DNA of 64,000 bases from Candidatus Saccharimonadota bacterium (lineage in GTDB: Bacteria > Patescibacteriota > Saccharimonadia > Saccharimonadales > Saccharimonadaceae). The position numbers and the translations under genes were made by a program. The stretch is taken from NCBI GenBank assembly GCA_017464135.1, contig JAFUEB010000002.1:1-64000 (forward strand), written 5' to 3'. Position 1 is the stretch's first letter. Each line of letters begins with the position of its first letter. Below, one piece after another: positions 8,185 to 49,515 of this stretch. The notes below the pieces were generated by a model. That model was not told the origin of the DNA, did no database searches, and saw only the letters and a list, made by a program, of their open reading frames with translations.

Positions 8185-8190
8185 ATTATA
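8185..8190 (-). promoter_or_regulatory. Extended -10 of the S41 protease gene
   Basis: Minus-strand TGCTATAAT, 6 bases before the ATG at 8178. Confidence 0.6.
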
Positions 8191-8212
8191 GCACAGCCAG
8201 TTTAAAATAACA

Positions 8213-31957: not shown

Positions 31958-32287
31958 TTAAAACTCAAGTCCTTCCTTGCGAGCGGCATCTGCGAGTGCA
32001 GTCATGCGACCTGCATATAGTTTAGAACCACGGTCAAAGACGACTTTCTTAACCTTAGCGGCTTTTGCCTTCTTGGCGATTTCCTCACCAATCTTGGCGG
32101 CCTTTTCGGTCTTAGTACCGGTCATTTTAGCGCCAACGGTAGTGGCATAAGCTAAAGTGACTTTCTTGTCATCATCAATAACCTGGGCTGTAATGTGTAG
32201 GTTCGAAAAATGAACCGTAAGACGCGGGCGTTCCGCGGTACCGTGAATCTTAGCACGGGTACGATTTGCTCTAAATACCTTATTCAT
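31958..32287 (-). CDS. rplR: 50S ribosomal protein uL18
   Basis: 109 residues. The basic N-terminus RANRTRAKIHGTAERPRLTV and the C-terminal FDRGSKLYAGRMTALADAARKEGLEF are diagnostic of bacterial L18, which binds 5S rRNA with L5. The start overlaps the rplF stop by one base. Confidence 0.96.
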   Translation of the reverse strand: MNKVFRANRTRAKIHGTAERPRLTVHFSNLHITAQVIDDDKKVTLAYATTVGAKMTGTKTEKAAKIGEEIAKKAKAAKVKKVVFDRGSKLYAGRMTALADAARKEGLEF

Positions 32288-32823: not shown

Positions 32824-32851
32824 ATATTTCCTTTAAGTTAATATCCGTACT

Positions 32852-32880
32852 ATTATACCACACCTTTTATCTGTTGACAA
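32852..32880 (-). promoter_or_regulatory. Sigma70-type promoter of rplF-rplO
   Basis: Minus strand: TTGTCA (32875-32880), 17-base spacer, TATAAT (32852-32857) preceded by TGG. The leader is about 22 bases and contains AAAGGAAAT. Confidence 0.85.
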
Positions 32881-32882
32881 GA

Positions 32883-33587
32883 TTAGAATAAGATTTGTGC
32901 CGGGTTACGCACCAGGACTTCGTCTAACTCTTGTTCATCCAAATACTTCGCGAGCTTTTTTCTAGCAGCAATTAGATAATCAGTCCCGCCCGGACGATGC
33001 AAATCGGAGCCAAATGCGAACACCATCTTGTTTTTTAGCATCTTAATCAAAACTTTTCGTGCCTTTTTGCCGTAGCGATCCACGAGCGAACCGAGATTGC
33101 ACTGGAACAGCACGCCACATTCGTGTAAGTTTACAATCGAATCAAAATCTTCTTTAAAGCTCTCATATCTTTCCGGATGTGCCAAAATCACCTTAAAGCC
33201 ACGTTGCATCAGCTCCAGGAAAATATCTTCATAATTCGGGAATTCGCCACTCATCGGAAGCTCAATGAGAAGATATTTGCTACCATTAATTCCGGTAATC
33301 TCCTGGCGTTCAACCAGCTTTTCGATATCGCGGCAAATATAAATCTCATTGCCTAAATAGATATTCACATTAACTCCGGCTTTCTCAAGCTCAGAGCGAA
33401 GTTTTACTACAAGTGTAGCGTTTTTTACAGAGGAAACGGTGTAATCTGTCTCATCCACATAGTGTGGTGTTGCAACCACGTCCGTAAAACCTTGACGCCC
33501 CAACCACTTCACCATCTCAACGCTGGTCTCAAAGTCTCTCGACCCATCGTCGACTCCCGGTAAAATATGTGAATGAATATCAATCAT
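32883..33587 (-). CDS. CpsB/YwqE-type PHP-domain tyrosine phosphatase
   Basis: 234 residues. The N-terminal DIHSHILPGVDDGSRDFETS carries the first metal ligands of the PHP fold. ATPHYV, LAHPERY and GSDLHRPG supply the others. In Gram-positive capsule systems this manganese enzyme dephosphorylates the partner BY-kinase. The kinase gene ends two bases upstream of this start, which fits that pair. It is the last gene of the polysaccharide locus. Confidence 0.92.
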   Translation of the reverse strand: MIDIHSHILPGVDDGSRDFETSVEMVKWLGRQGFTDVVATPHYVDETDYTVSSVKNATLVVKLRSELEKAGVNVNIYLGNEIYICRDIEKLVERQEITGINGSKYLLIELPMSGEFPNYEDIFLELMQRGFKVILAHPERYESFKEDFDSIVNLHECGVLFQCNLGSLVDRYGKKARKVLIKMLKNKMVFAFGSDLHRPGGTDYLIAARKKLAKYLDEQELDEVLVRNPAQILF

Positions 33588-33589
33588 CT

Positions 33590-34945
33590 TTATTTCGCCG
33601 AATCACCATAATAATAATTATAGTATTTCGAGGATTTCTTGTTCACCATATTAAAGACAATACCGGCAATTCTGGCGCCAACTTTTTCTAGCGATTCCTT
33701 GGCTACCATGAGATCGCCCTTCGCGGTTTCGCCGTCTTTTACAACGATGAGTGTTTCATCTACGAAGCTAGAAAGAATCACAGAATCGGCGAGACCACCA
33801 ACCGGTGCACCATCAAAGATAATAATGTCGTAGTAATCACAGAGTATATCAATGAGGCGTTTGTTCTTCTTGGATGCGAGAAGTTCACTTGGGTTTGGTG
33901 GGTAAGTACCACAAGTAACGATGTCGAGATTCTTAATTTTAGTCTTTTGGACGTACTTTCCAAAGTATCTTAAATCATTAGTTAGAAGATTGGATAAACC
34001 ATAAGTATTTGGAACGCCAAATAGTCTGTGCAAACGCCCTTTTCTTAAATCGCAGTCAACAATAAGGACTTTCTTATCGGCCTGGGCGAACGAAATCGCA
34101 AGATTCGATGAAATAAAGCTCTTACCTTCGCTAGCGTTAGTACTGGTAATTAAAATCGTCTTCAAATCTTCATCAACTGCAGTAAACTGCAAGTTGGTTC
34201 TAAGACTCTTAATGTTCTCACTCACGATGGCCTTTGGTGATTTCTCAACCACGAGTTCGCTTAGCTTTCTCTTTTCATCGCTCTTTAAGATGCGCCCAGC
34301 GACCGGCATGCCAATCGTCTTTTCTACATCATCACTATGCTTAACGGAATCATCAAGATAGAATCTAAGGAAGGCAAAGCCAGCCACGGCAAAGATGGAA
34401 ATCACGACAGCAAGGATAAGGTCACGATTCATAGTGTTGTTAGCAGGATTCTCCGGCTCAACTGCCACGCTAAGCTGCGTCACGTTCTCAATCTTATAAA
34501 TTCTGGCAACTTCAGTTGAAAACACGCTGGCGATCTTATTAGCAATCTCTGCAGACATTTTGGCGGTTGGGTATTTAACGGTGATACTAAGTACTGCCGT
34601 ATCGTCTACCGGCTTAATGGTAAGATTCTTGCCAAGCTCTTTCGCATTTGTATCAAGCTCTAGTTCATCAATCACTTGGTTCAAAACCAATTCACTTTTC
34701 GCGATGACGCTGTAGGTAGAAGCAAGCTTCTGGCTAGCGTTGATTTCATTGAGGGTCGCCGCCGTGCCAACATCCGACTCGTCGGACTTAGCAATCACGA
34801 CCGTAGTCTGTGCCTGATAAATCGGCTTCTTAAACATCGATTCGTAAATAGTCACACCAACAGCCGCGACCAATGCGAAAACGATAAAAGCCAAAACATA
34901 GTGCTTCAAATAACTAAAAAATTCTTTTATATTGATTTCTTCCAT
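33590..34945 (-). CDS. Fused chain-length regulator (Wzz) and BY-kinase
   Basis: 451 residues. The N-terminal Wzz domain has membrane helices at about 16-36 and 176-196 with an extracellular loop between. The cytoplasmic tyrosine autokinase domain follows, with Walker A-like STNASEGKSF near 269, Walker A' KVLIVDCD near 294, Walker B-like IIIFDGAPV near 378, and a C-terminal tyrosine cluster YYNYYYG. It controls polymer length and export through cyclic phosphorylation. Starts possible are ATG 34945 or the preceding GTG; GGAG lies 7-10 bases upstream. Confidence 0.92.
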   Translation of the reverse strand: MEEINIKEFFSYLKHYVLAFIVFALVAAVGVTIYESMFKKPIYQAQTTVVIAKSDESDVGTAATLNEINASQKLASTYSVIAKSELVLNQVIDELELDTNAKELGKNLTIKPVDDTAVLSITVKYPTAKMSAEIANKIASVFSTEVARIYKIENVTQLSVAVEPENPANNTMNRDLILAVVISIFAVAGFAFLRFYLDDSVKHSDDVEKTIGMPVAGRILKSDEKRKLSELVVEKSPKAIVSENIKSLRTNLQFTAVDEDLKTILITSTNASEGKSFISSNLAISFAQADKKVLIVDCDLRKGRLHRLFGVPNTYGLSNLLTNDLRYFGKYVQKTKIKNLDIVTCGTYPPNPSELLASKKNKRLIDILCDYYDIIIFDGAPVGGLADSVILSSFVDETLIVVKDGETAKGDLMVAKESLEKVGARIAGIVFNMVNKKSSKYYNYYYGDSAK

Positions 34946-34966
34946 CACTTACATTCTCCATTTATC

Positions 34967-34972
34967 ATTATA
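34967..34972 (-). promoter_or_regulatory. Extended -10 of the BY-kinase/phosphatase unit
   Basis: Minus-strand TGCTATAAT, 21 bases before the ATG, with GGAG in between. Confidence 0.65.
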
Positions 34973-34990
34973 GCATAACCACCAAAAGGT

Positions 34991-36145
34991 TTAAACATCA
35001 TTATCCAAATATTCATTCATTTTCCTCACAATTTCCTTGTACGATTCTTCATCCGGAATCATCGCCCAAAGTGGCCTATCTTCACCATAAGTATAGGTCG
35101 GGTACAAATCGCCCTCGCCATCGAGACCAATCGATTCAATCTGCCAACCGGTCCTGTTCGCGAGCAAGAATCTAAGGAATGTCGTGATATCATCACGCGT
35201 GAAGCTGGTTTCGAAGGTGTTTCCAGCGATTTCAAGGATTTCCGGAAGTCTTAGCAATTGATCGTTCGAGCTCAGGAACTTATTAATAATTCCCGTCAAA
35301 ACTTCCTGCTGGTTTTCACCACGATGTCTGTCACCACGATAATATTTCTTTCTTTCTCTCGAAAATGCTAAAGCGCATTTTCCATCTATTTGTTGTGGTC
35401 CATATACAAATACACATTTTCCACCACCCCTGGCGTTCAAAGTCATCGCAGTGTCCGAGAAGATTTCAATTCCGCCTAGCTCATCGACTACTTCCACTAC
35501 TGTATCAAAGCTTACTCTAATTGTGTGATAAATATTAAATCCGAGAAAATCCTCGAGAGTCTGCCGGCTAAGTTCCGTATTATTATTCAGTCCTGCATGA
35601 GTGAGTTTGTCCTTTAAACCTGTCGTACCATGTAGTTGCACATAAGTATCGCGTGGAATGTTGACCAGAAGAATCTTCTTTTTCTCCGGGTTCATCACGG
35701 CGAGAATATTCACATCGCTTCTAGCCGTTGGGTCGTCAATATCCGTACGCGAATCAGTACCAGAAATATAGACAATATATGGATCCTTCGTAATGTCCAC
35801 AGAATAATCCGGCCTAGTTTCGCTGCTTATACTGATATTCGAACTCACCTTATCAAGAAAAGCATTAAATGCATTGGTGTAGCGAAGTGCAAAGATTCCT
35901 CCCGCAATACAGGCGGCCGATACCACCATACATAAGATTCTAAGTACATAGAGTGGTTTTTTCTTCACAAAAAACATTATCACGCATAGCGCAGATAGTA
36001 CCGCAAGAATCACCGCCGCGAGCACCACCACCCATGAATCCAAAATATGTAGTCTCGCGACCGATACTAAGCACATCACAGACACCACTGCTTGTGCTAG
36101 TGCCAGTAACAGTCCAATAATTCGCCACACCAAATAGTTTTTCAT
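34991..36145 (-). CDS. LytR-CpsA-Psr (LCP) family glycopolymer ligase
   Basis: 384 residues. Three N-terminal membrane helices (about 8-30, 38-60 and 68-90) precede the extracellular LCP domain (about 120-290). LCP features are GTDSRTDIDDPTARSDVN, LVNIPRDTYVQL and the Arg-rich FSRERKKYYRGDRHRGENQQ. LCP proteins transfer lipid-linked glycopolymers to peptidoglycan or proteins. The ATG overlaps the ugd stop (TAATG), linking attachment of the polymer to UDP-sugar supply. Confidence 0.94.
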   Translation of the reverse strand: MKNYLVWRIIGLLLALAQAVVSVMCLVSVARLHILDSWVVVLAAVILAVLSALCVIMFFVKKKPLYVLRILCMVVSAACIAGGIFALRYTNAFNAFLDKVSSNISISSETRPDYSVDITKDPYIVYISGTDSRTDIDDPTARSDVNILAVMNPEKKKILLVNIPRDTYVQLHGTTGLKDKLTHAGLNNNTELSRQTLEDFLGFNIYHTIRVSFDTVVEVVDELGGIEIFSDTAMTLNARGGGKCVFVYGPQQIDGKCALAFSRERKKYYRGDRHRGENQQEVLTGIINKFLSSNDQLLRLPEILEIAGNTFETSFTRDDITTFLRFLLANRTGWQIESIGLDGEGDLYPTYTYGEDRPLWAMIPDEESYKEIVRKMNEYLDNDV

Positions 36146-37329
36146 TAGTCCCTCGCAAACAAATCACGTGTGTAAACGATATCAGCTACATCGCGTAAGT
36201 GTTCCTCGAGGCGGTTTGCGATGATTAAATCGCTACGCTTAGCAAACTCATCAAATTGGTTTACGATTTCAAATCCGGCATATCTTTTCTCAGAAAGCGT
36301 TGGTTCGTAAATAATCACTTCGATACCCTCGCCACGAAGCTGCTTAATCACATCATGAATAGCTGCCGAACGGAAGTTGTCCGAGCCACTCTTCATAGTC
36401 AAACGATACACGCCCACAGTCTCAGGTTTACGCTTACAAATATCTTTCACGATGAAATCTTTACGAGTCTTGTTGGCCTGTACGATTGCCCTAATGAGGT
36501 CTTGAGGCACATTGTGATAGTTTGCAAGAAGTTGCTTAGTATCTTTTGGCAAGCAGTAGCCACCATAGCCAAAGGATGGGTTATTGTAATGCGCACCGAT
36601 GCGCGGATCAAGACACACACCATCAATAATAGACTTAGTGTTAAGCCCCTTCACCTGGGCATAGGTATCAAGCTCGTTAAAGAAAGAAACCCTAAGCGCA
36701 AGATAAGTGTTAGCAAAGAGCTTAATCGCCTCAGCTTCGGTCGGTTGGACGAATAATACCGGCACGTCCTTAGCAAGTGCTGCAGACTGGAGCATCTTGG
36801 CAAATTTCTTGGCAGCCGGAGTTTCGTCACCCACAATAATACGTGAAGGATAGAGGTTGTCGTAGAGCGCCTTACCTTCGCGGAGAAATTCCGGTGAGAA
36901 GAAAATGTTATTGATACCATATTTCTTACGGGCTTTTTCGATATAGCCGACCGGAATCGTAGACTTCACGACAATCGTCATCTTGTCGTCTTTCATCTTG
37001 ATGGCTTTTTCGATAATGTCTTCCACGGCAGAAGTATCGAAAGTATTCGTTTCGTCATCGTAATTAGTTGGGGTTGCAACAATTACGAACTCGGCGCCTT
37101 CCATGGCCTCCTTGTAATCAACGCTACCGCGAATGTTGAGTTTACGCTCACCCCGCTTGGCTTCATCGAAGAACTTCTCGATGTATTCATCACGAATCGG
37201 CGATTCGTAGTTACTAATCTTGTCGGCTTTGTCCTGGTGAATCTCTAAGACCACCACCTCATTCTTTTGGCTAAGTAATGTGGCGAGAGACAGACCAACG
37301 TAACCACCACCTGCTACAGTTATTTTCAT
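36145..37329 (-). CDS. ugd: UDP-glucose/nucleotide-sugar 6-dehydrogenase
   Basis: 394 residues. The N-terminal Rossmann motif is VAGGGYVGLSLATLL. The substrate loop carries ATPTNYDDETN, and FFSPEFLREGKALYD is family-typical. The catalytic Cys is in GYGGYCLPKDT near 259. Two NAD-dependent steps convert UDP-glucose to UDP-glucuronate. The neighbouring epimerase could make UDP-galacturonate from it. A consensus promoter and GGAG site precede the ATG. Confidence 0.93.
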   Translation of the reverse strand: MKITVAGGGYVGLSLATLLSQKNEVVVLEIHQDKADKISNYESPIRDEYIEKFFDEAKRGERKLNIRGSVDYKEAMEGAEFVIVATPTNYDDETNTFDTSAVEDIIEKAIKMKDDKMTIVVKSTIPVGYIEKARKKYGINNIFFSPEFLREGKALYDNLYPSRIIVGDETPAAKKFAKMLQSAALAKDVPVLFVQPTEAEAIKLFANTYLALRVSFFNELDTYAQVKGLNTKSIIDGVCLDPRIGAHYNNPSFGYGGYCLPKDTKQLLANYHNVPQDLIRAIVQANKTRKDFIVKDICKRKPETVGVYRLTMKSGSDNFRSAAIHDVIKQLRGEGIEVIIYEPTLSEKRYAGFEIVNQFDEFAKRSDLIIANRLEEHLRDVADIVYTRDLFARD

Positions 37330-37367
37330 TTTTCTCCATTCAAAAAATAATAAAATTACTTAATAAT

Positions 37368-37396
37368 ATTATATCTGATTTTTAGCTTTTTGTCAA
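37368..37396 (-). promoter_or_regulatory. Perfect consensus sigma70 promoter of ugd-LCP
   Basis: Minus strand: TTGACA (37391-37396), 17-base spacer, TATAAT (37368-37373). It has a leader of about 32 bases with GGAG before the ATG at 37329. Confidence 0.88.
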
Positions 37397-37401
37397 TTAA
37401 A

Positions 37402-38451
37402 CTATCGGTAGAATTCTTTATACCACTCGGCGAATTTGCGAAGGCCATCGCGGAGTGAAGTGTGTGGCTTGAACCCAAAATCTCTTTCGAGTGCCGAAGT
37501 ATCAGCATAAGTTACCGGCACATCGCCAGGCTGCATCGGGACAAGCTCTTTGTGGGATTCGAAATCATAGTCTTCCGGCAAAACCTTCGCACGGATCAAT
37601 TCTTCCTGCAAAATCTGGACGAAATCGAGCAAATTCTCTGGATTGGAATTACCGATATTGTACACAGCATACGGTGCAAGTGGCAAACCATCTTCCCCGT
37701 CTTTTTTCTCCGGGGCTTTGGCCATCACGCGCATCACACCTTCGACAATGTCGTCAATATAGGTAAAGTCACGCTTACAATTACCATAGTTAAAAATCTG
37801 GATCTTTTCACCATTAATGAGTTTATTGGTAAACCCAAAGTAAGCCATGTCCGGGCGTCCAGCCGGACCATAAACCGTAAAGAATCTGAGGCCCGTAGAA
37901 GGAATATTATAGAGTTTAGAATACGCATGGGCGAGAAGCTCATTAGATTTCTTGGTTGCAGCATATAGACTCACCGGATTATCTACCTTATCTTCTACTG
38001 CAAACGGCACCTTCTTGTTACCACCATACACAGAAGATGACGATGCGTAAACCAAATGCTCTGGCATGTGGTAACGGCAAGCTTCAAGGATGTTGTAGAA
38101 GCCAATTAGATTCGATTCGATATAGGCATCCGGATGGTCAATCGAATAGCGCACACCAGCCTGGGCCGCCAAATTCACTACGATGTCTGGATGGTATTTC
38201 TCGAACACTTCATCCACGGCCTTCTTGTCCGCCAAGTTCCCTTTGATGAATTCAAAGTTATTGAAAGATTCAAGCTCTTTCAAGCGATACTCTTTTAATC
38301 TCACATCGTAATAATCATTGACCGAATCAAAACCAATCACCTTGGCATCTGGATTTTCCGTACAAACTCTTTTCGCTAACGCAGCACCAATAAACCCAGC
38401 CGCACCGGTAATCAAAATAGTCTTATCGCCAAAAATAGCTTCTATAATCAT
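37402..38451 (-). CDS. NAD-dependent epimerase, UDP-glucuronate 4-epimerase type
   Basis: 349 residues, extended SDR. The glycine motif is TGAAGFIGAALAKR, the catalytic pair is in SSSSVYGG and YAATKKSNE, and FFTVYGPAGRPDMAYF is characteristic of GlcA 4-epimerases. YSIDHPDAYIESN agrees. The likely product is UDP-galacturonate for the polymer. The start was set at ATG 38451, 6 bases after TGGTATAAT; the longer frame would read through the promoter. Confidence 0.9.
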   Translation of the reverse strand: MIIEAIFGDKTILITGAAGFIGAALAKRVCTENPDAKVIGFDSVNDYYDVRLKEYRLKELESFNNFEFIKGNLADKKAVDEVFEKYHPDIVVNLAAQAGVRYSIDHPDAYIESNLIGFYNILEACRYHMPEHLVYASSSSVYGGNKKVPFAVEDKVDNPVSLYAATKKSNELLAHAYSKLYNIPSTGLRFFTVYGPAGRPDMAYFGFTNKLINGEKIQIFNYGNCKRDFTYIDDIVEGVMRVMAKAPEKKDGEDGLPLAPYAVYNIGNSNPENLLDFVQILQEELIRAKVLPEDYDFESHKELVPMQPGDVPVTYADTSALERDFGFKPHTSLRDGLRKFAEWYKEFYR

Positions 38452-38457
38452 GCAATT

Positions 38458-38463
38458 ATTATA
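38458..38463 (-). promoter_or_regulatory. Extended -10 of the epimerase gene
   Basis: Minus-strand TGGTATAAT, 6 bases before the ATG at 38451; a leaderless start is predicted. Confidence 0.65.
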
Positions 38464-38531
38464 CCATAAAACGCACCTACCGTCCATAAATCTTTCTTTG
38501 CCGAAGGATAAAACCCAGAGCCCAATCTTTT

Positions 38532-39554
38532 CTATTTCTGTAAACCAAATAAGATATTAATCTTTGGTATTCTACGCACGATCTCACAAGATATAACACC
38601 CAAAAGCAAATCAATAGCCGGAATAATAAATATAATAACCATATCCATTGCACCACCTAAAAATAATCTACCAAATATTTTATACAATATTACCTTATAG
38701 AAACTGTCCAGTAGCATTAATTGGAAGGAAAACTGCCCAATCCTAGATAAGGTTTTATTCCCCTTCTTCACCAAACTAGCAATCAAATATAAACAGTACA
38801 TTAATGCAATAGCTATCATGTATTTAACTAAATAGCTATTGATACCAACACCAAATCCTATAAGTACAGAATACATGACAATCAAGAATAAACAAATAGC
38901 GGCTATAATAACCTTGTATTTATGTATTAAGTGAGATATTAAGTCTTTATAATAACGGGCTATGAAGCCACTTAGGAAGAATGGTAGATAGTATATTGTC
39001 TTTTGAATTTGGAAAAAGTTAAAGTTGATTTGATTATTAAAAGCGCCCAGCAAAGTATTAAAAATTATAAACAAAAGTAAAAACAAAATTGCTTTCCTAG
39101 GCGGTTCCTTATAGTTCTTTTCCCATATCAAGGGCATCATTAAAAACATCAGAAAAATCGAATACGCAAACCAGTATAATTCGCCAAAGACAAAAGCGTC
39201 CAATAATTGTTCCCACACACTATTACCATGTATAAAATCCTTCGTAACTAAATTTGAAAATAACAGTTTTAAAACAGTAAATGTGATAAATGGAATAAGT
39301 ATTCTTAGAAACTTCTTTTGATAAAACTTTTTAACATCTTGTTTATGGCACAAATATCCAGCAATCAAGAAGAATAAAGGCACATGAACGGCATATACTA
39401 AACTTGAAAAAATCTTCATCCCATTAGGCAAAGGATTAATATTGTTGGCATAAAAGGAAAGTGAGTGTCCAAGGACAACGAGAATAATAGCAAACGCCTT
39501 TAAATAATCAATTGTCGTATTTCTCGAAGATGATGACTTAATAGTCGTGTCCAT
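38532..39554 (-). CDS. Acyltransferase family 3 membrane protein
   Basis: 340 residues with about ten membrane helices. The N-terminal IDYLKAFAIILVVLGHSL holds the conserved histidine of the family, followed by HVPLFFLIAGYL. Such proteins O-acetylate or otherwise acylate sugars at the membrane. A role in decorating the exopolysaccharide is inferred from position at the end of the wzx-GT block. Codons are visibly more AT-rich than in the epimerase gene next to it. Confidence 0.88.
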   Translation of the reverse strand: MDTTIKSSSSRNTTIDYLKAFAIILVVLGHSLSFYANNINPLPNGMKIFSSLVYAVHVPLFFLIAGYLCHKQDVKKFYQKKFLRILIPFITFTVLKLLFSNLVTKDFIHGNSVWEQLLDAFVFGELYWFAYSIFLMFLMMPLIWEKNYKEPPRKAILFLLLFIIFNTLLGAFNNQINFNFFQIQKTIYYLPFFLSGFIARYYKDLISHLIHKYKVIIAAICLFLIVMYSVLIGFGVGINSYLVKYMIAIALMYCLYLIASLVKKGNKTLSRIGQFSFQLMLLDSFYKVILYKIFGRLFLGGAMDMVIIFIIPAIDLLLGVISCEIVRRIPKINILFGLQK

Positions 39555-39560
39555 AGGCCG

Positions 39561-41096
39561 CTATCCCCGCTCATCTATCTTTCTTTTACTTTTTCGTTTA
39601 AGCAATGCTTTACTAAACAACCTAATTGCTCCATTTAATTCTTTCCCAAAGAATATACTATTAATAGTTAATGTAATAATGCTAGCTACACACATCGTCG
39701 ATGCTAGATTAATACCGAAATCTAAATAATTATTGTTTTCTCTAAACTGCACCATTGAAGATATTGCAACAATAATAGCAGTCTCTAATACTATCAAAGC
39801 TATTTTTTTGCCACTCTTCCAAATTGATCTTCTTAAAATGTATTTATTAGCATGATAAATAAACTCAATTGCACGAATCGCCATAGCAACAATCGTGCCT
39901 ATCGCTACGCCAATAATACCAAGCCAGTTTACCAAGATGATAGAAATAACAATATTTGAGATACATTCCACCCATGCACCTTTTCTTGTTTCCTTAAAAT
40001 GACCAGCCGCAAGTATAATAACATTATAAGGCTGCCTAACCGCCCAAATGTACTCACTAATAACCAATAACACACCAAATAGTGGCCTAATATAGTCAAC
40101 ATCAGTAATACCTCTTGTGTATACCGAAATAAAAGGGGTTATCAAAACAATTGCCGTGGAAAATGCTATGGTGCTCACGGTATTAAAAATAGTTTCAAAA
40201 ACCGAAAACTTTTCATTTAAGTTCTTCTCTTCGCTTTTCGCTATCATATCCCCAAAAGTAGCATCTAAACTTCCAGAAAAAGTTCCTATTAATGCTTTTA
40301 CGCCACTTACCACCAAATGGTACACAGAATAAACTGATACTTCTGAGAGAGTCGTAAATAGCGTCAATACGGTGACATCAGTTTTTGTATGTATAACATA
40401 CGCTACATGTTGTGCGAGACCATCCCATTTTTTATTCAATTTATAATCCTTAGCGCAATTCTTTAAATCTAAATTGAACTTTCGCTTCACATAAATATTT
40501 AAAAATAGTGGTCTTATGATAAAGATTGCCCCACTCACCAATTTGATAATATGTATCCCAACTCTTATTCTAGCTAAAACTATGATAGCTATCGTAGATA
40601 AGATATAAGTGATAATTTGGATGAACGAAATAACATATTTCCTTTGCTTTGCCTGCAAAAACAGCCCAAAGGTCATTCCAAAATAGTATTCCGCAAAAGT
40701 ACTTATGCCAATAATCACAATCAAAGACGATGTAAATAGCCAATCGAATTGATTATTTACTATGAATGGATAAAAAGCACATAGAATCACTATATAACCA
40801 AGGAAAATTAATGCTATTACCCTAAAAATCTTCTCGGATGATTTCAAAATATTGCCAATAGTGGTACTATCTTTATTCGCAATCGGCTTATATAAAGCCG
40901 CTTTAATTACTGGACCGAACCCCGACTCAAGCAACGTAATGTATGCCAAGAATTGAGTAATCGAAGACACCAAACCATTTACCTCGGATCCGAACGAACT
41001 AATAATAATCCTTGGTACAATAAAACCACTAATAATAATTATCGCCTGAAGCAATAGATTACTTATTAAATTATATAGTGCTTTTTTACTTCTCAT
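39561..41096 (-). CDS. Wzx-type polysaccharide flippase (MOP superfamily)
   Basis: 511 residues with about 12-14 membrane helices and a basic C-terminus. The N-terminal helix pattern, with ISSFGSEVNGLVSSITQFL, is typical of O-unit and capsule flippases. It would move lipid-linked repeat units across the membrane for polymerisation. The start overlaps the stop of the upstream glycosyltransferase (TAATG). Confidence 0.88.
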   Translation of the reverse strand: MRSKKALYNLISNLLLQAIIIISGFIVPRIIISSFGSEVNGLVSSITQFLAYITLLESGFGPVIKAALYKPIANKDSTTIGNILKSSEKIFRVIALIFLGYIVILCAFYPFIVNNQFDWLFTSSLIVIIGISTFAEYYFGMTFGLFLQAKQRKYVISFIQIITYILSTIAIIVLARIRVGIHIIKLVSGAIFIIRPLFLNIYVKRKFNLDLKNCAKDYKLNKKWDGLAQHVAYVIHTKTDVTVLTLFTTLSEVSVYSVYHLVVSGVKALIGTFSGSLDATFGDMIAKSEEKNLNEKFSVFETIFNTVSTIAFSTAIVLITPFISVYTRGITDVDYIRPLFGVLLVISEYIWAVRQPYNVIILAAGHFKETRKGAWVECISNIVISIILVNWLGIIGVAIGTIVAMAIRAIEFIYHANKYILRRSIWKSGKKIALIVLETAIIVAISSMVQFRENNNYLDFGINLASTMCVASIITLTINSIFFGKELNGAIRLFSKALLKRKSKRKIDERG

Positions 41097-42160
41097 TAAA
41101 TCTTCTTAATTAACCTTAATAATCTACATACTGGAACATACTTTAAGTTCTTCGTATACGCTCCATTAATAATATTCCTAGATATTAAACTATTCAATAA
41201 ATGTTGGTTTAGTTTTGTCTTATTAAATCCGTTTAAATAGTTTTCTAAGTCTGCATTTAATTCTTTTTGTATGAATAATAGATCTTTTTTCGGAGTACTA
41301 CTGGTGCCTAGTATCCGAATAATCTTGCCAGACAATAACGAAAGTGTTTTATTTACTAAAACATCCTCATCAACCTTTCCGTCTTTTTTAACGGCTATTT
41401 TCTCCCTCACCCTATTTAAATAAATATTATCTCTTACATTATCCACAACCTTATTGACATCAATATTATTAGTAATACCATTCGGATTGTTTAGATAATG
41501 ATAGAGATTGTTCTCGAGTAATACTATCTTTCTTGCTTTTTGGAATAGCTGAAGATTAATTTGCAAGTCTTCGCCCTTATGAACTATCTTATCAAAAATT
41601 CTATCATTAAAATCAAACAATTTTCGTCTAACCATCTCGTTCCAAATCTGATTACAATCCGTGTGATAGATAATCCTATTTAAAAGAGCGTCTACTTCCT
41701 CGTTTTCTAATATTTCTTTATCAATCACCCCATCAGAAAGCAAGTTCCTAGTTATCCCAGATGGTTCTAATATGTAGCCAAATTTAACAATGTCTACATC
41801 GCCAAACAACAAAACAGCATCCACGCATTTTTCGACCAAATCTTTTTCAAGCCAGTCATCGGAATCCTCTATTAATACATATTCCCCCTTTGAGTGTTCA
41901 ATACCATTTCTTCTAGTAATTACTCCACCACTATTTTTCTGTTTTAGTATCTTTATTCTCGAATCCTGCTTTTTATACTTTTCGGCTATTGCTAACGACT
42001 GATCAGTAGAGCCATCATCCACCAGTATAATCTCAATGTTTTTATAAGTTTGCCCAATTATAGACTGTATGCATTTATCTAAATAACTAGAGCTATTATA
42101 GATAGGCACAACTACTGACACTAATATTGTTTTTTTGCTCTTATTGATGTTGCTATTCAT
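41096..42160 (-). CDS. Glycosyltransferase family 2
   Basis: 354 residues. The GT-A domain begins VSVVVPIYNSSSYLDKCIQS near residue 14, with VDDGSTDQS and the DxD-like EDSDDW near 99. A helical C-terminal part covers about 240-354. It is an inverting sugar transferase for the repeat unit; the sugar is not known. The ATG overlaps the CapA-like stop (ATGA), and AAAGG lies upstream. Confidence 0.9.
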   Translation of the reverse strand: MNSNINKSKKTILVSVVVPIYNSSSYLDKCIQSIIGQTYKNIEIILVDDGSTDQSLAIAEKYKKQDSRIKILKQKNSGGVITRRNGIEHSKGEYVLIEDSDDWLEKDLVEKCVDAVLLFGDVDIVKFGYILEPSGITRNLLSDGVIDKEILENEEVDALLNRIIYHTDCNQIWNEMVRRKLFDFNDRIFDKIVHKGEDLQINLQLFQKARKIVLLENNLYHYLNNPNGITNNIDVNKVVDNVRDNIYLNRVREKIAVKKDGKVDEDVLVNKTLSLLSGKIIRILGTSSTPKKDLLFIQKELNADLENYLNGFNKTKLNQHLLNSLISRNIINGAYTKNLKYVPVCRLLRLIKKI

Positions 42161-43284
42161 CGCTTTTTACCTTTAATCGCACCCTTTAAGCCTTCTATTG
42201 CTAGCTCCCTATGGGACTCGCACTCGACAACGTTTAAAACTGACGCATACTTAAATGTTATTCTGCGGAATAGCCCTGGCATGATTTTACGGATTACTCT
42301 TAGTATAGTGCTGTTTGAGCTCAGCATTATTATATAATTATCTAAATTTTTCGCCGCAAATTCCTCATACTTTTTATTGATTACATCAGTACCCTTAATC
42401 TCCTCCGTCCTGTCCAAAAAATCACTAATTATTTTTTTCGCTATTTCTCCTTGAGCAAGCTTAACCCCATTATCTGTTTGCAGTAATGGAACATATTTTA
42501 TTACTGGCTTATTGCCCATTTCTATCTTAATCAACAATGACGTGTTCCAATACTCGTTACTAATTTTATTAAAAATAAAGTTACCTTGGCCATAAATAAT
42601 AGTCCCACCCATATATTCTTCTTTGCAACCAATACAATGGCTATGCTGACAGATTACCAAATCTGCACCTGAATCAATCATTCTTCTACATCTTTTTTGC
42701 AACAATGGACTTGGATATCTATAGCATTCTTTCCCACCATGATACACTACGATAATATAATCGTGGTCGCTATTAGCACTTTTGATATCGTCGTACAAGA
42801 AAAACTCATCATAAGGATTGGCACCTGGCTTAGTCTCCGTTGCAATAGAAAACTCATGCTCACAACAGTTATAGACTAATACTTTTTTATTATTACACTT
42901 GAACTCGTATCTTTTAATCACTTCTTTTATATTATTCCCAGCGCCAATCCAATGTATGTTATTTTTATCCAATAGTTTTATCGTATCAAACAAGCCGGAC
43001 TCACCATAGTCCATAATGTGGTTATTAGACAGTAAAACACAAGTCGGGTGCATTTTTACAATACCATTAATAACCTTAGTATCGCATTTGATATTTGGTC
43101 CATACTTTTCTATTTTCTTTTCGCTATTTGTCATTGGACATTCTAGATTAAACAATCTAAAATCTGATTCTTCCCATACCTTTAATAAATCCTCGCCCAA
43201 AACTGTTTTTATTTCGCCTTTCGACAATAATTCTTCAGCATTCCCACATGGGGCAACATCTGCACCTATTATAATACTACTCAT
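42157..43284 (-). CDS. CapA-family metallophosphoesterase-like protein
   Basis: 375 residues. The family elements are GADVAPCGN at the start, LFNLECPM, LLSNNHIMDYGESG, VVYHGGKEC and CQHSHCIG, which supply metal ligands of the calcineurin-like fold. CapA-like proteins act in capsule or poly-gamma-glutamate export. The protein has no signal peptide, which is unusual. The stop is TGA. It overlaps both neighbours (8 bases upstream, 4 downstream). Confidence 0.88.
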   Translation of the reverse strand: MSSIIIGADVAPCGNAEELLSKGEIKTVLGEDLLKVWEESDFRLFNLECPMTNSEKKIEKYGPNIKCDTKVINGIVKMHPTCVLLSNNHIMDYGESGLFDTIKLLDKNNIHWIGAGNNIKEVIKRYEFKCNNKKVLVYNCCEHEFSIATETKPGANPYDEFFLYDDIKSANSDHDYIIVVYHGGKECYRYPSPLLQKRCRRMIDSGADLVICQHSHCIGCKEEYMGGTIIYGQGNFIFNKISNEYWNTSLLIKIEMGNKPVIKYVPLLQTDNGVKLAQGEIAKKIISDFLDRTEEIKGTDVINKKYEEFAAKNLDNYIIMLSSNSTILRVIRKIMPGLFRRITFKYASVLNVVECESHRELAIEGLKGAIKGKKR

Positions 43285-44182
43285 GTTCTTCCTTTAATTT
43301 TATCATTTCGCCAAGTTTTTTATTCCACCTTTCATCATCGAATCTCTCATAACCACCAGCAGGATAAAACGTTAGCTCACCAAAATATATTCTTCCGTCT
43401 ATATCATACAAATCAACTCTAACGTGTGGAATACCTTTTGACAACTTTTTAGCAATTGATTTCATTTTACTATAGTTCTTTGGTTTTATTAAATCTTTTC
43501 TGTTTTTATGCCCACCTTCCCTCAAATCAAGAAGGTTGAAATCCTCATCAAACCATGTCTCCTCTAAATCCGTCTGTCTATTAGTGCAAACTAACACCAC
43601 TCCTATTTTGCCATCAAAACAGAAAAACTTATAATCCCTTATTTCACCCTCATTACTGTCTTCTAAATACTTTTCTACAATAATCCTCGGTTTAAGGTTT
43701 TTATACGGCCACTCCCTATAAGACCAATAATAATTCCTTTTTAGACATTTCTTTATTCTTTTTCTTACCTTATTCAAATCCAGTTCCGACTTATCTCTAC
43801 AGATTATAGTGCCACCAGAATCGTGAGTACATTTTATTACGAATTGATCAGGAAGACTATTAAAATTGATTTCTTCAAAACTATCATAAATGCCAATGGT
43901 CGGTATGACATACTCATCTCCGATGGCATTAGTTACGTATTGCTTTGCTTCATACTTATCCACCATCGTAGTGTAAATATCTTTTCTATCATGTAATTTT
44001 AGCCACTGAAGTTTTTCGTTATATGTTTTTGGGTTCTCTAAATCACACTTATTGTTTGTCTTCAACAAATGCATTAACTTTACGTATTTTTCATCATTTA
44101 TTAAATGCAAACCTCGATTATTTAAAAAGACCAAAAGAAACAATGGTTTTTTTATCAGTTTTGCAATCTTACTGTGTCTCAT
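43277..44182 (-). CDS. ATP-grasp (TupA-like) glycosyltransferase-type protein
   Basis: About 301 residues. The pattern TYNEKLQWLKLHDRKD followed by YVIPTIGIYDSFEEI, QFVIKCTHDSGGTIIC and VRVDLYDIDGRIYFGELTF fits the TupA-like ATP-grasp family found in polysaccharide loci. The reaction is not known from sequence. ATG 44182 was chosen because AAAGGA lies six bases upstream; the longer frame starts within the upstream gene. It overlaps the polymerase gene by 14 bases. Confidence 0.82.
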   Translation of the reverse strand: MRHSKIAKLIKKPLFLLVFLNNRGLHLINDEKYVKLMHLLKTNNKCDLENPKTYNEKLQWLKLHDRKDIYTTMVDKYEAKQYVTNAIGDEYVIPTIGIYDSFEEINFNSLPDQFVIKCTHDSGGTIICRDKSELDLNKVRKRIKKCLKRNYYWSYREWPYKNLKPRIIVEKYLEDSNEGEIRDYKFFCFDGKIGVVLVCTNRQTDLEETWFDEDFNLLDLREGGHKNRKDLIKPKNYSKMKSIAKKLSKGIPHVRVDLYDIDGRIYFGELTFYPAGGYERFDDERWNKKLGEMIKLKEEHE

Positions 44183-45428
44183 TATTAATCCTTTGCTTCC
44201 CATTTAATCTAATAAATATATCCACGATACATAGAATAAACATATTAAACTCAAGTGTATAGCTAACATTCCCATAATCTAGTATCAACAAAAGCAACAA
44301 TACGGATAAAAACAACTCTGAATATTTTTTTACACTATCGTCATTTGTGCTTCTTTTTATCCGTATTAATTTAATAATCGCCCAAATCCAATATGAATAG
44401 TAAATCACAAAACCGACCACACCGAGAGTGCACAAAATCTCCGTATAATTATTATGACTATACGCAACATGACGATACTTTTTTTCACGCATATATGTCA
44501 CAAAGTTATTGCCACCATATCCGAAGGCTGGATGTTCTGCAAATAGGGTCATTGCTTCATTCATATAATAATTTCGTTCTATCAAGCTTTTATCAGTTGT
44601 CCCGACCCTTCCATTTACAGTATTTAAAGTAGTAGACTCTGAGTTTTCACTATTCAATGTGAGGAAGAATCTCTCCAACCTATATCCCATGGTGCTATAT
44701 AATTTGTCATTCGATATCACAATAAAAATCATTGCCGCAGCCATTAATAAAGACACCAGTACTTTTAGAACCTTCTTCTTGTTCGCTGAGGTAATAAATA
44801 TTACCATTATCAATCCGAGTATTATTAGCAGTAAAGCTTTCTTTGAGCCAGAAAGAAGCGTCAAAATCGTAAACAAAATAGATAATAAAGAATAAAGCAA
44901 TCTGTTAATTTGAATACTTTTATTGCATAGTAGGAACAATGAGATAATAAAACCAAATGCCATTCTAATCCCAAAAGAATTAGCATTCATATCAATTGCA
45001 CCACCTATCCTAGAAGAACCCAATTCGGATAATGGTGTCAACAATAATGTCATTATTGCGGAAATTGCGATAGAACACACTATCAGCTTTAACAATTTTT
45101 CAATCTTTTTTTCATCCGTTATCAATTTTGGTAAAAATAGGAAAATACCGATAGTATATGCAAAAGCTGACAAATACCTAATAGTGTCTGAAGCGTCGCT
45201 ACTCCAAAATGCCGAAATAAAATAATATGTCCAAAAAACTACGCCCCATTTTAATATTCTTGTTAACAAAATATTTTTGTTGACTAAAAAAGAATATCCA
45301 AGGACTAATATATAAGACGCAACAGTTATGATGGGGTTTAATCTAAACGCAGAAATCGAAACAAGGAAGAATAGTAGCAACACATCTTCTGTTTTGATAC
45401 TAACTCTTTTTTCTTTAAACAATTTCAT
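44169..45428 (-). CDS. Wzy-type O-antigen/exopolysaccharide polymerase
   Basis: About 419 residues with 11-12 membrane helices and one larger outer loop (about 255-330). This loop holds the Wzy/O-antigen ligase-type FAEHPAFGYGGNNF and the conserved HNNYTEILCTLG. It joins repeat units outside the membrane. The start was set at ATG 45428, one base after the upstream stop, with AAGGA 11 bases before; the frame from TTG 45449 is less likely. Confidence 0.87.
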   Translation of the reverse strand: MKLFKEKRVSIKTEDVLLLFFLVSISAFRLNPIITVASYILVLGYSFLVNKNILLTRILKWGVVFWTYYFISAFWSSDASDTIRYLSAFAYTIGIFLFLPKLITDEKKIEKLLKLIVCSIAISAIMTLLLTPLSELGSSRIGGAIDMNANSFGIRMAFGFIISLFLLCNKSIQINRLLYSLLSILFTILTLLSGSKKALLLIILGLIMVIFITSANKKKVLKVLVSLLMAAAMIFIVISNDKLYSTMGYRLERFFLTLNSENSESTTLNTVNGRVGTTDKSLIERNYYMNEAMTLFAEHPAFGYGGNNFVTYMREKKYRHVAYSHNNYTEILCTLGVVGFVIYYSYWIWAIIKLIRIKRSTNDDSVKKYSELFLSVLLLLLILDYGNVSYTLEFNMFILCIVDIFIRLNGKQRINNETQ

Positions 45429-45429
45429 T

Positions 45430-47826
45430 TTATAGATTATCCTTAGCAATTATCTCGTAAATATCCATATATTTGTTTGACATAAACTTGCTACTAAAGT
45501 TTTCTTCCACATTTTTCCTAGCGCAATGGCCTACTTTGTCCAGATTAATATTACACATCTTTTTAAGCTTTTCAAAATAATCATCGCTACTACTATTATT
45601 AAACACCAATCCTCCACTTTTTTCTCCATCCGGCAGAAGTTCCTTATGCTGCGGAATGTCCGATAATAACACAGGAAGCCCCATTGCCATTGCTTCAAGC
45701 ACACCATTTGGCAAACCTTCCGATTTACTAGCCGAAACATAAGCATCGCCTACACCTAGATACGCATTGACATTATCTACTGGGCCAGTAAAGATCAAAT
45801 TATCTCTTCTGCCATATTTTTCATGTATAGTTTCAAAATCATCTCCACCCCCTAGTAGCAACATTTTTTCATTTTCTTTACATACTTGTAAGAAACCATC
45901 AATCATAAATGGTATGTTTTTGCGCTCAATAAATTGTCCAGAATAAACCCATACAAAATCATTTTCAGAGAAACTCAATTTCTTCCGTATTGATTTTTTC
46001 TCCGAGGCACTTAGTGGAACATACTTTTCTACATCCACACCATTCTGAATACAATCCGTTTTAATTCCTAGTTTTTCCTGATACATTTTTTGTAAGCTTT
46101 TTGAACATGATACGACTGTATTGGTATTCTTTATTGCAGATATTTGCATTTTCGCTAGCATTAAGCCTCTTGCTTTACCAAATTTTGCCGGATAATCTTC
46201 GTAAGCATAATTCCTTAAAGTAAAGACATGATTCTTAAACCCAATCGTACTAATTAAGTAGTCCGGAAATACACCCATCGAATGGATAACATCCGGCTTG
46301 ATTTCAGACAAGGCCCTCTCCATCCTCTCGGTCTTTTTTCTAATAATCGATTTTTTACCTATGAGCACCATATGATGCTCCGAAACGTATGGCAAATAAT
46401 CATTAATACGCGAATCCAGACCTTCTTCATAAATCGTCACAAGTACTGGATCAAATCTTGTTCTGTCCAAGTTCTTAATGATGTTTAACGTCTGTTGAGT
46501 CGGGCCACTTTTGCGGCATGAAGTCATCAAGTATACAATTTTGATTTTGCCGTTCAGACTACTATTGCATTTTGCGACCTTCAAAATGTTTTCTGGGATC
46601 TCCACCACATACACCCCTCTTTTTCCTTCAAAACATGCGTCAAAGCACACTTTCTTTCCATCTCTGCTCCACCTTGGATGTAAATCGCAGCGTGTGTCGT
46701 TATCATATCTGAATGGTGCATATACCTTTGCAATTATAGTGCTCGTAGTATCGGATAAAACTCTAAGAACCTGGACTCGTTTACGATTTGGATAAGTATC
46801 AGTCACTACTAATTTGCCATTCGGCGAATAACTCGGATGCCCATCTACCGTCAACCACTCCCATTTCTGTTCATATTTAGGTGTTTTATCTTTCATCAAG
46901 AAATAACCATTCTTACCATCTTTTCTACAATAGGCTAGTATTTCCGAATTGTTTTTCCAATAACAATGCGAAACCATGTTATCGTCAGACAAATTGTATA
47001 GATTCTGCCCATCTATATCACAAGTTAACAAGCGACTAATTTTCTTTCCGCCTTTTAGCCATCTGTGGATCACCATAAAACGCTTCCCATCCGGGCTTAA
47101 CATTAAATGATTCACTTTATGCTCCGCTCCGTCCATATCGTCACGGTGCTCAAAATCACATAATTGCTTGTAAGACAGAATCGACTCAATCTTTCCACTT
47201 CTTAAATCGAGCCTTGAAACACAAGGCGCATCCGGAACTTTTTCATCCTTCGTCTTATCCTCAAGATTAGAATAACCATATCCCGGACGCAAGCGATGCA
47301 ATCTCGAGAAATCTAGCGAAAGCGCTGTTTTACCATCGTTTGAAACCGTATATACCGGAGCATCGAACAACTTTTCATCACCAGTAAAAACATTCCTAAT
47401 TACTGAAACGTACTTACCTTTTCTGAAATCGTTATAAATAATTTCTTTATCATAATTTGGCCCTAACCAACCCAGCATGCAACCTTGTTGCACATTCCAA
47501 GTATGTGTTTTTGATAGCACTTCAATCTTGTTATTATTCTCAGTGTCGATTAATACAATTTCCGCCTCGTCCTTTGGTGCAACTTCTTTAGAGGCATTTT
47601 TTACGCGAATGCAAAGCATATATCGCCCGCTTGCATCCCATGGTGATTTATCGTAATAACCAAACAAGTATTCATAGTCATCTTTAGGCGTTACTCTTTT
47701 GATATTACCTTCTGATTTTTTGGATCGTGAAATAGCAACACTTGCAACTTGATAGACACGCTTCGTTGCCTTTTTAAGAGCAGGAAAATTCATTAATGCG
47801 TCGTGAACCTTACTTTCTAGACCCAT
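45430..47826 (-). CDS. Fusion: TolB-like beta-propeller plus GT4 glycosyltransferase
   Basis: 798 residues. Residues about 40-415 form repeated blades with TolB/WD40-like turns (SPDGKRFMVIHR, SPNGKLVVTD, WSRDGKKVCFD). Residues about 425-795 are a complete GT-B transferase: KIVYLMTSCRKSGPTQQTL at the start, WVYSGQFIERKN and the SKSEGLPNGVLEAMAMGLP donor-site motif. The propeller may bind glycan or partner protein. The frame is unbroken across the junction, so it is a true fusion. AGAAGGTG precedes the ATG. Confidence 0.88.
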   Translation of the reverse strand: MGLESKVHDALMNFPALKKATKRVYQVASVAISRSKKSEGNIKRVTPKDDYEYLFGYYDKSPWDASGRYMLCIRVKNASKEVAPKDEAEIVLIDTENNNKIEVLSKTHTWNVQQGCMLGWLGPNYDKEIIYNDFRKGKYVSVIRNVFTGDEKLFDAPVYTVSNDGKTALSLDFSRLHRLRPGYGYSNLEDKTKDEKVPDAPCVSRLDLRSGKIESILSYKQLCDFEHRDDMDGAEHKVNHLMLSPDGKRFMVIHRWLKGGKKISRLLTCDIDGQNLYNLSDDNMVSHCYWKNNSEILAYCRKDGKNGYFLMKDKTPKYEQKWEWLTVDGHPSYSPNGKLVVTDTYPNRKRVQVLRVLSDTTSTIIAKVYAPFRYDNDTRCDLHPRWSRDGKKVCFDACFEGKRGVYVVEIPENILKVAKCNSSLNGKIKIVYLMTSCRKSGPTQQTLNIIKNLDRTRFDPVLVTIYEEGLDSRINDYLPYVSEHHMVLIGKKSIIRKKTERMERALSEIKPDVIHSMGVFPDYLISTIGFKNHVFTLRNYAYEDYPAKFGKARGLMLAKMQISAIKNTNTVVSCSKSLQKMYQEKLGIKTDCIQNGVDVEKYVPLSASEKKSIRKKLSFSENDFVWVYSGQFIERKNIPFMIDGFLQVCKENEKMLLLGGGDDFETIHEKYGRRDNLIFTGPVDNVNAYLGVGDAYVSASKSEGLPNGVLEAMAMGLPVLLSDIPQHKELLPDGEKSGGLVFNNSSSDDYFEKLKKMCNINLDKVGHCARKNVEENFSSKFMSNKYMDIYEIIAKDNL

Positions 47827-48655
47827 CCGTCACCTTCTCCCGCATGAATTTTTTAAACAATGCTTGTCTTATTCCGTTTGGAGCAATTGCCGAACAAAAA
47901 CGTACAGACACTGCAGCCATATACTGCGGCACCGAAATGAATTTATTCTTTCGCATTTTTTTATACAACTGTTTTTGAATCTTGAAGTATTTTAGCCCAG
48001 AACGTCTCTTGAATGTCTTTCTATCTTCACGCATGTATACCAAGATTTCTTGGATATTGTATAGCTCATAGCCATTCATTAATAAATTCGTCCACAAATA
48101 CCAGTCCTGGCATTTTCTCACTTCCGGATAATTGCCTACAGCAAGAATATCTTTCTTACGGAACATCACAGATGGATGATTCATCGGGCTACGCCATTTT
48201 ACAAACTTAATAATCTCTTCATTTGTTTCCGGTACTTTACGAATCGTTTTAACGTCTTCAATGGTAACTGCAAATTCACCAACTAATCCACCTACGGCGC
48301 TAAGCTTTGGATTCTTTTCGAAAACTTCTAGTTCTTTTTCACAACGATCTTCTCTAGAAATATCGTCCGAATCCATTCTTGCAATCAAATCATTCTTACA
48401 CTCCGGAATCCCTGTTCTAAGGCAATGCCCTAATCCGTGGTTTTCTTCGTGGCGAATCACACGTAAGCGCTTACCAAATTTTTCTTGCATTTCGGCAATC
48501 GTTTCATCTAGCTTCTTTGTTAGTGGCCCATCGCAGATTAATACAAAATCATCCGTCGGAATTGTCTGGTTGTAAATACTCTCCATGCTTTGCTTCAAAA
48601 TACCAGGCTTTTCATCCTTATATACCGACATCAAAACCGAATAGTTCTCTTTCAT
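47810..48655 (-). CDS. Glycosyltransferase family 2
   Basis: About 281 residues. ENYSVLMSVYKDEKPG opens the GT-A domain. LICDGPLT, ARMDSDDIS (DxD) near 90 and KCQDWYLWTNLLMNGY near 185 are typical of transferases that add Gal or Rha-type sugars. It is the first gene of the polysaccharide transcription block. ATG 48655 is used; an in-frame GTG at 48682 lies 5 bases after TGGTAGAAT and would be a leaderless start. Confidence 0.88.
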   Translation of the reverse strand: MKENYSVLMSVYKDEKPGILKQSMESIYNQTIPTDDFVLICDGPLTKKLDETIAEMQEKFGKRLRVIRHEENHGLGHCLRTGIPECKNDLIARMDSDDISREDRCEKELEVFEKNPKLSAVGGLVGEFAVTIEDVKTIRKVPETNEEIIKFVKWRSPMNHPSVMFRKKDILAVGNYPEVRKCQDWYLWTNLLMNGYELYNIQEILVYMREDRKTFKRRSGLKYFKIQKQLYKKMRKNKFISVPQYMAAVSVRFCSAIAPNGIRQALFKKFMREKVTDGSRK

Positions 48656-48687
48656 TTTAGTCAAAAAACCACACTTTTCCACTTAAT

Positions 48688-48693
48688 ATTCTA
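48688..48693 (-). promoter_or_regulatory. Extended -10 of the glycosyltransferase block
   Basis: Minus-strand TGGTAGAAT. It lies between the rpsH terminator and the first glycosyltransferase gene, so the block can be transcribed apart from the ribosomal operon. Confidence 0.55.
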
Positions 48694-48741
48694 CCACAAA
48701 ACGGAGCAAATGTAAAAAGTTTAAGCTTATTTTCACCCCAG

Positions 48742-48783
48742 AAAATAAAAAATACCACCATATATTATATATATGGTGGTACT
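48742..48783 (-). terminator. Strong rho-independent terminator after rpsH
   Basis: TACCACCATATAT pairs perfectly (13 bp) with ATATATGGTGGTA around a 3-base loop, followed on the minus strand by TTTTTTATTTT. It ends the first half of the ribosomal cluster. Confidence 0.93.
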
Positions 48784-48828
48784 ACGTAAAGCGGTCAAAC
48801 TTTATTGTGTGCTCGCGCTAGCAACGAA

Positions 48829-49230
48829 TTACCAAACGCGAACGAGGATCTCGCCACCAAGACGATTCTTCTTGGCATCGCGGCCGGTCATGAGGCCCTT
48901 AGACGTAGATACGATTACCGTACCACGACCGGACTTTACTACCGGAAGTTCATCTGCGGATGAGTACACACGGCGACCTGGCTTAGAAACCTTAGTGATT
49001 TCATTAATTTGTGCCAAAGTGCCCGGTTCGTTAATGACAATGTGGAGTAAACCACGTGGTTTGCCATCCTCAACTTTGTATGAAGCGAGATAACCATTCT
49101 TTACTAAAATCGCAACGATTGCCTCTTTGAGTTTCGAAGTAGGAACGAGGATTTCAGTCTTGTTTGCCGAAATCGCATTACGAATGCGGGTAAGTAAATC
49201 GGCGATTTGATCAGTTGTTTGTAATGACAT
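48829..49230 (-). CDS. rpsH: 30S ribosomal protein uS8
   Basis: 133 residues, normal. It starts MSLQTTDQIADLLTRIRNA and ends with the conserved STSKGLMTGRDAKKNRLGGE before ILVRVW. It binds helix 21 of 16S rRNA. In most bacteria rplF follows at once; here a terminator and the polysaccharide locus follow. Confidence 0.97.
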   Translation of the reverse strand: MSLQTTDQIADLLTRIRNAISANKTEILVPTSKLKEAIVAILVKNGYLASYKVEDGKPRGLLHIVINEPGTLAQINEITKVSKPGRRVYSSADELPVVKSGRGTVIVSTSKGLMTGRDAKKNRLGGEILVRVW

Positions 49231-49245
49231 GTCTTCTCCTTTCTC

Positions 49246-49515
49246 CTACCAGCTACTCTTAGTTACACCAGGAATTTCGCCCTTAGATGCTTTTTCCCGG
49301 AAATTAATACGGCTTAGGCCAAAGCGGCGCATATAGCCACGTGGACGACCATCGAGCATATCGCGGTTTTTGAGGCGAGTTGGGCTGGCGTTACGTGGAA
49401 GCTTTTGGAGACCTTCAAGATCACCGGCAGCTTTTAGTTCAGCGCGTTTGGCTTTATATTTTTCGTACATTTTGCGGCGTTTTTCGTCACGGAGAACTGC
49501 AGATTTCTTAGCCAT
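49246..49515 (-). CDS. rpsN: 30S ribosomal protein uS14, zinc-free form
   Basis: 89 residues from ATG 49515. It has [15 protein letters not shown] and [18 protein letters not shown], the C-terminal signature of S14, but no CxxC pairs, so it is the zinc-independent type. The longer frame adds seven residues that overlap rplE and is not used. Confidence 0.95.

Follow-up and report, generated by a model that had tools for sequence, protein, structure and literature searches.

Inversion of uronates at C5 is best known from polymers that are already complete, alginate and heparosan among them. The nearest named homolog of the propeller described here is WbgV, a stand-alone protein of 414 residues from the O-antigen cluster of S. 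sonnei, where its gene is next to those for a GT2 glycosyltransferase, a 4-epimerase, and a dehydrogenase that makes UDP-uronate. The S. sonnei O-antigen contains L-AltNAcA (PMC4368438). RefSeq annotates WbgV (L033, positions 7986-9230) as a "UDP-GalNAcA C5 epimerase," a name in conflict with O-antigen papers in which WbgZ is the C-5 epimerase and WbgV is tied to another sugar, FucNAc4N (PMC9723277, PMC6124807); the discrepancy deserves correction. The relevant papers that we found to mention WbgV contain no assay of it, and a Proteus O-antigen paper checked for an independent L-altruronate cluster does not mention the sugar.

Among solved structures, the closest fold is that of oligogalacturonate lyase (family PL22; 3pe7, 3c5m), a catabolic enzyme found outside polysaccharide synthesis loci. 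We take the PL22 site to consist of three histidines and one glutamine on a metal, plus a histidine base; in the Y. enterocolitica lyase, H287, H353, H355, and Q350 presumably bind manganese, while H242 removes the proton next to the carboxylate. This C5 proton is the one that a uronate C5-epimerase has to move. A third point of comparison is TolB of the Tol-Pal system, a periplasmic propeller with repeats of the SPDG type.

In the window, the 64,000-nucleotide stretch of a Saccharibacteria-like genome analyzed here, a homolog of WbgV is fused to a GT4 glycosyltransferase within a capsule locus (Table 1). The open frame is unbroken, as an earlier note on this DNA had reported, and lies on the minus strand, which that note had left unstated; on the opposite strand, stop codons crowd the same interval.

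Table 1. Coordinates of the fusion gene, its parts, and the other genes of the capsule locus in the window.
Feature	Positions	Strand	Remarks
Fusion protein: helical N-terminus, C5-epimerase-like propeller, GT4	45430..47826	minus	798 aa
N-terminal residues 1-36, two predicted helices	47719..47826	minus	AlphaFold2 model; possibly a membrane-surface anchor
Beta-propeller, residues 37-416	46579..47718	minus	WbgV homolog, oligogalacturonate-lyase fold
Linker, residues 417-426	46549..46578	minus	pLDDT under 50 at 419-425
GT4 retaining glycosyltransferase (predicted), GT-B fold, residues 427-798	45433..46548	minus	Pfam, fold, EX7E motif
GT2 glycosyltransferase, GT2b	47810..48682	minus	Overlaps fusion start; candidate transferase of the uronate
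Wzy/O-antigen ligase-type membrane protein	44169..45449	minus	PF04932 2.5e-21; overlaps fusion 3' end
TupA-like ATP-grasp protein	43277..44203	minus
PGA_cap (CapA-like) protein	42157..43284	minus
GT2 glycosyltransferase, GT2a	41096..42160	minus
Probable membrane protein, Wzx-flippase-like	39561..41096	minus	511 aa; suggested by position and appearance
Acyltransferase family 3	38532..39554	minus
SDR sugar-nucleotide epimerase, probable UDP-GlcA 4-epimerase (would make UDP-GalA)	37402..38487	minus	Substrate predicted
UDP-glucose 6-dehydrogenase (Ugd), makes UDP-GlcA	36145..37329	minus	PRK15057 E 4.5e-153, below equivalog cut-off
LCP (CpsA-like) glycopolymer transferase	34991..36145	minus
Fused chain-length regulator/tyrosine autokinase (Wzd/Wze-like)	33590..34948	minus
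Probable PHP-type phosphatase, CpsB-like	32883..33587	minus

The propeller-GT4 pair recurs, with 49-52% identity end to end, in six other, unrelated genomes, from a Spirochaete and from Bacillota of the gut (L045, L049, L050, L054, L067, L072). These differ from the window in host and locus but share the domain order and carry a homolog of GT2b directly upstream. Recurrence in these six genomes excludes chance or a faulty assembly as the origin of the junction, and the fusion is real; a stand-alone form of the propeller also exists. The full-length model of the fusion (pLDDT 89.6) has two good domains joined by a disordered linker, and its pTM of 0.62 leaves the placement of the propeller relative to the GT4 half unpredicted, with no rigid interface.

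The first half of the protein is not made of propeller blades only, as the earlier note had it; about 36 residues of predicted helix come first. These helices are kept throughout the 37-row biosynthetic clade, with 49-56 residues ahead of the first conserved motif, and are short or absent in most deep stand-alone relatives. Helices at this end of the protein would be compatible with contact with the membrane. Inspection and hydrophobicity revealed no evident signal peptide at the N-terminus, and even the most hydrophobic stretch of 18 residues scores low; the fusion is therefore consistent with a cytoplasmic protein, the location that had been proposed for the propeller. A scan of positions 44000-49300 against Rfam returned no match.

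The C-terminal half had been described as a full GT-B enzyme of family GT4, and this description holds. Three Pfam models match above their cut-offs: PF13692 (3.6e-21, 76 bits, cut-off 27), PF00534 (1e-20, 74 bits, cut-off 26.4), and PF13439 (2e-8, 35 bits, cut-off 28.5). The modeled domain matches the GT-B enzymes BshA, MshA, and HepE at Z 36-37, its EX7E motif (EGLPNGVLE, residues 703-711) is intact, and a viral structure library gave only glycosyltransferases among the matches listed. This half is a complete GT4 enzyme, predicted to be a retaining transferase.

The N-terminal half had been called a TolB-like propeller. The propeller stands: an AlphaFold2 model built from a 56-sequence alignment has a mean pLDDT of 94 and a pTM of 0.91. 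The TolB likeness does not: the TolB model TIGR02800 scores 25.3 bits against a cut-off of 343, far too little for membership, the SPDG-type repeat matches are weak (PD40, E 0.003), and structural similarity to TolB is lower than to oligogalacturonate lyase. The closest structure in the Protein Data Bank is the manganese-bound lyase 3pe7 (Z 30.5 over 327 residues, 3.1 A); in VIA-align the two lyases reach Z 30.5 and 29.9 and the next, unrelated family Z 24.8, while Foldseek likewise places oligogalacturonate lyases first (E 5.5e-14 and 7.4e-13). Sequence identity to the lyases is about 16-17%. A profile-profile alignment with four lyases (hhalign) spans nearly the whole propeller (E 8e-6, probability 83.5%), and the HMMER profile alignment with 3pe7 is weak by itself (E 0.57). 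The propeller has the fold but is not a plain PL22 lyase, as the Pfam model PF14583 does not match the N-terminal half even at E 5, nor does it match in the eight genomes bearing propeller relatives that we scanned.

The homology to WbgV is full-length, including the helical N-terminus and the invariant residues (29.5% identity over 96%, 2e-43). Other full-length homologs found by protein search on plasmids include a Parabacteroides protein, adjoined by a UDP-glucose-type dehydrogenase and an epimerase. WbgV relatives were absent from E. coli genomes in a DNA search and from phages in a protein search.

Both the HMMER and the profile-profile alignments place lyase residues R217, H242, H287, H353, and H355 opposite propeller residues R265, H287, H330, D381, and H383. 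One metal-ligand histidine of the lyase is thus an aspartate in the propeller, and the lyase Gln350 has no clear equivalent. Each of the five propeller residues is invariant in 56 of 56 relatives, and in the 12 most diverse relatives there is likewise no variation at H287, H330, D381, or H383. The earlier note had suggested that the propeller binds the acceptor glycan or another enzyme of the locus. Propellers are common binding scaffolds, and the Protein Data Bank holds no solved structure for any close relative of this one, so docking of an acceptor or partner enzyme by a propeller with no catalysis of its own keeps some small probability. Against it, invariant His, Asp, Arg, and Gln residues stand where a known enzyme has its metal-dependent active site, the homolog is named as an enzyme, and the propeller is a stand-alone gene in most loci. 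An enzymatic role is better supported, since the nearest named homolog is annotated as a C5-epimerase, the closest fold belongs to a uronate lyase that depends on a metal, and the active-site positions of that lyase are invariant.

The fold by itself does not fix the reaction, because deep-branching relatives lie outside polysaccharide loci. Lyase activity or other carboxylate-side chemistry, such as beta-elimination to an unsaturated uronate, would fit the nearest fold, and epimerization and elimination have the proton-abstraction step in common. We nevertheless consider this the least probable of the alternatives, as the loci are biosynthetic with no visible degradation genes, and the L-AltNAcA of S. 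sonnei needs a C5 inversion where most other genes seem accounted for, an argument by elimination.

The earlier note's functional tie between the propeller and the polysaccharide locus is supported by the neighborhoods of its relatives. Of 39 related loci, 32 have a UDP-uronate dehydrogenase and/or 4-epimerase gene no farther than about 20 kb away. In full-length windows of +-8 kb, uronate enzymes accompany 14 of 26 propellers versus 5 of 32 controls centered on other GT2 genes of the same genomes (Fisher p 0.004, a value made optimistic by treating loci as independent). The loci come in two flavors. The HexNAc-uronate module, as in S. sonnei, combines TviB, WbgU, a WbgW-like GT2, and the propeller; the hexuronate module, as in the window, combines Ugd, a GlcA-type 4-epimerase, GT2b, and the propeller. 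The GT2 follows the flavor of the uronate: a WbgW-like GT2 is found in 8 of 9 HexNAc-uronate loci versus 0 of 19 hexuronate loci, and GT2b or its Parabacteroides relative in 18 of 19 hexuronate loci versus 0 of 9 HexNAc-uronate loci. Immediately upstream of the propeller, a GT2b homolog is present in 18 of 20 loci of the hexuronate type and in 0 of 10 of the HexNAc-uronate type. The Wzx-flippase-like protein of the window matched nothing in Pfam or NCBIfam, and its homologs are present in many related loci.

We propose, with a probability of roughly 0.6, that the fusion is an enzyme with two activities encoded in a Wzx/Wzy-type capsule locus: the propeller, as a WbgV-type C5-epimerase of uronates that needs a metal and works in the cytoplasm, would convert D-galacturonate to L-altruronate, and the GT4 half would add the neighboring sugar. 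Given the parallel with S. sonnei, the module of Ugd, 4-epimerase, GT2b, and propeller should make and attach L-altruronate. Ugd and the 4-epimerase would supply D-galacturonate; propeller H287, the candidate base, could remove the proton from C5, the carbon beside the carboxylate, with R265, H330, D381, and H383 as putative carboxylate and metal residues, and return of a proton on the other face would complete the inversion to L-altruronate. GT2b is the likely transferase of the uronate. The analysis establishes the fold, the homology, the invariance of the sites, the gene neighborhood, and the recurrence of fusion, and from these we infer that the propeller is an epimerase, which uronate and metal it uses, in what order the steps occur, and whether the sugar is carried by UDP or by a lipid.

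The odds are about even that the propeller acts on a UDP-sugar or on an undecaprenyl-linked sugar. The RefSeq name of WbgV implies the former, and the propeller could then produce UDP-L-altruronate for direct transfer by its own GT4 half, an ordinary way in which fusions of this type couple steps. We regard such a supply of donor to the fused domain as unlikely, given that the flavor of the uronate is tracked by a separate GT2 (GT2b or WbgW-like), that the fused domain comes from four or more different transferase families, and that the full-length model lacks a rigid interface. With the flavor-specific transferase encoded separately as GT2b, the fused GT4 more likely performs the adjacent step than uses an L-uronate donor. 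The gene order suggests in turn that the propeller might act on a lipid-linked residue: the reactions would follow the order GT2b, propeller, GT4, and with the epimerase tethered to the enzyme of the following step, the epimerized residue would be trapped. Tentatively, then, GT2b could attach D-galacturonate, the propeller invert C5, and the fused transferase at once add the next sugar and lock in L-altruronate, the machine having been built repeatedly by exchange of transferases; this two-step scheme is possible but doubtful.

If this proposal is right, uronate C5 inversion also happens during assembly of the repeat unit, not just on finished polymers, and should the lipid-linked scheme hold, this would be a bacterial capsule route with intracellular epimerization of the uronate, residue by residue. 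The propeller family would gain a testable function, with ties to L-altruronate or L-AltNAcA synthesis, both among bacteria of the gut and in the Saccharibacteria-like genome studied here, and one gene family would flag loci that make L-uronates.

The family is widespread, with at least 563 relatives in one genome scan, and is mostly named hypothetical in databases. Among 380 genomes of the phylum of the window, a full match was found only in its own genome; outside this sample, the Saccharibacterium RGIG5646 (L043) encodes a propeller that is 66% identical. Its locus likewise lies behind S8 and shares Ugd, 4-epimerase, LCP, kinase, and phosphatase genes with the window, but there the propeller is joined to a GT2, not a GT4. 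A glycosyltransferase-like open reading frame accompanies the propeller in 37 of 39 loci of the biosynthetic clade and in 3 of 41 loci of the deep stand-alone relatives. The latter (L035, L036, L038, L082-L122) belong to Alphaproteobacteria, Planctomycetota, and archaea and lie away from glycosyltransferases, some of them adjoining tricarboxylate transporters and dehydrogenases.

Although the propeller is a separate gene in most loci, a C-terminal transferase is fused to it in 15 of the 39 from the biosynthetic clade: a GT4 in seven (one of them, in L077, unrelated), a GT2 in six, a CDP-glycerol glycerophosphotransferase-like (TagF-like) domain in one, and another GT-B domain, by a weak match, in one. 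On a Palleronia plasmid a GT2 is placed before the propeller, and in L052 nearly the same GT4 is encoded as a separate, overlapping gene. In the maximum-likelihood tree of the propeller, the GT4 fusion needs at least six changes, and three of the proteins with a GT4 (window, L054, L067) have GT2 fusions as their closest relatives. The variety of partners and the changes on the tree argue that the transferase half was swapped repeatedly, an exchange that illustrates the remodeling of capsule loci; a propeller that stays the same while its transferases change would fit an enzyme making a shared intermediate. The WbgV locus differs from the window on this point as well as in its enzymes, with a propeller that stands alone and with HexNAc-uronate enzymes and a WbgW-type GT2 in place of the Ugd/GlcA type and GT2b.

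All 16 kb of the capsule locus lie inside the spc ribosomal-protein operon (32287-49230), between S8 (48829-49230) and L6 (32287-32823). The length of this gap differs greatly among 40 genomes from the genus of the window: S8 and L6 are adjacent (about 40-55 bp) in G126, G603, and G605, 1-7 kb apart in many genomes, 10-20 kb apart in G597, G610, G608, G591, G150, and G615, and 55-72 kb apart in G609 and G600. The islands sampled hold polysaccharide genes (L211, L212, L214, L215) or large open reading frames, several of these with signal-like starts (L205-L208, L214), and the gap looks like a hotspot for insertion of surface genes within a ribosomal operon. On the minus strand of the window, a hairpin of 15 pairs, accompanied by a T run (48751-48783), comes right after S8 and is followed, ahead of the first capsule gene, by consensus matches to a sigma-70-like promoter (TTTACA-17-TAGAAT, 48688-48716), so transcription of the inserted locus may be independent of the operon around it.

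Two islands of the same genus (L212, L214) keep parts of the 4-epimerase, Ugd, LCP, kinase, and phosphatase set found at 32883-38487 of the window, with 4-epimerases 89-90% identical to that of the window, and have different middle genes without the propeller. The fusion thus belongs to the serotype-like variable part of the locus.
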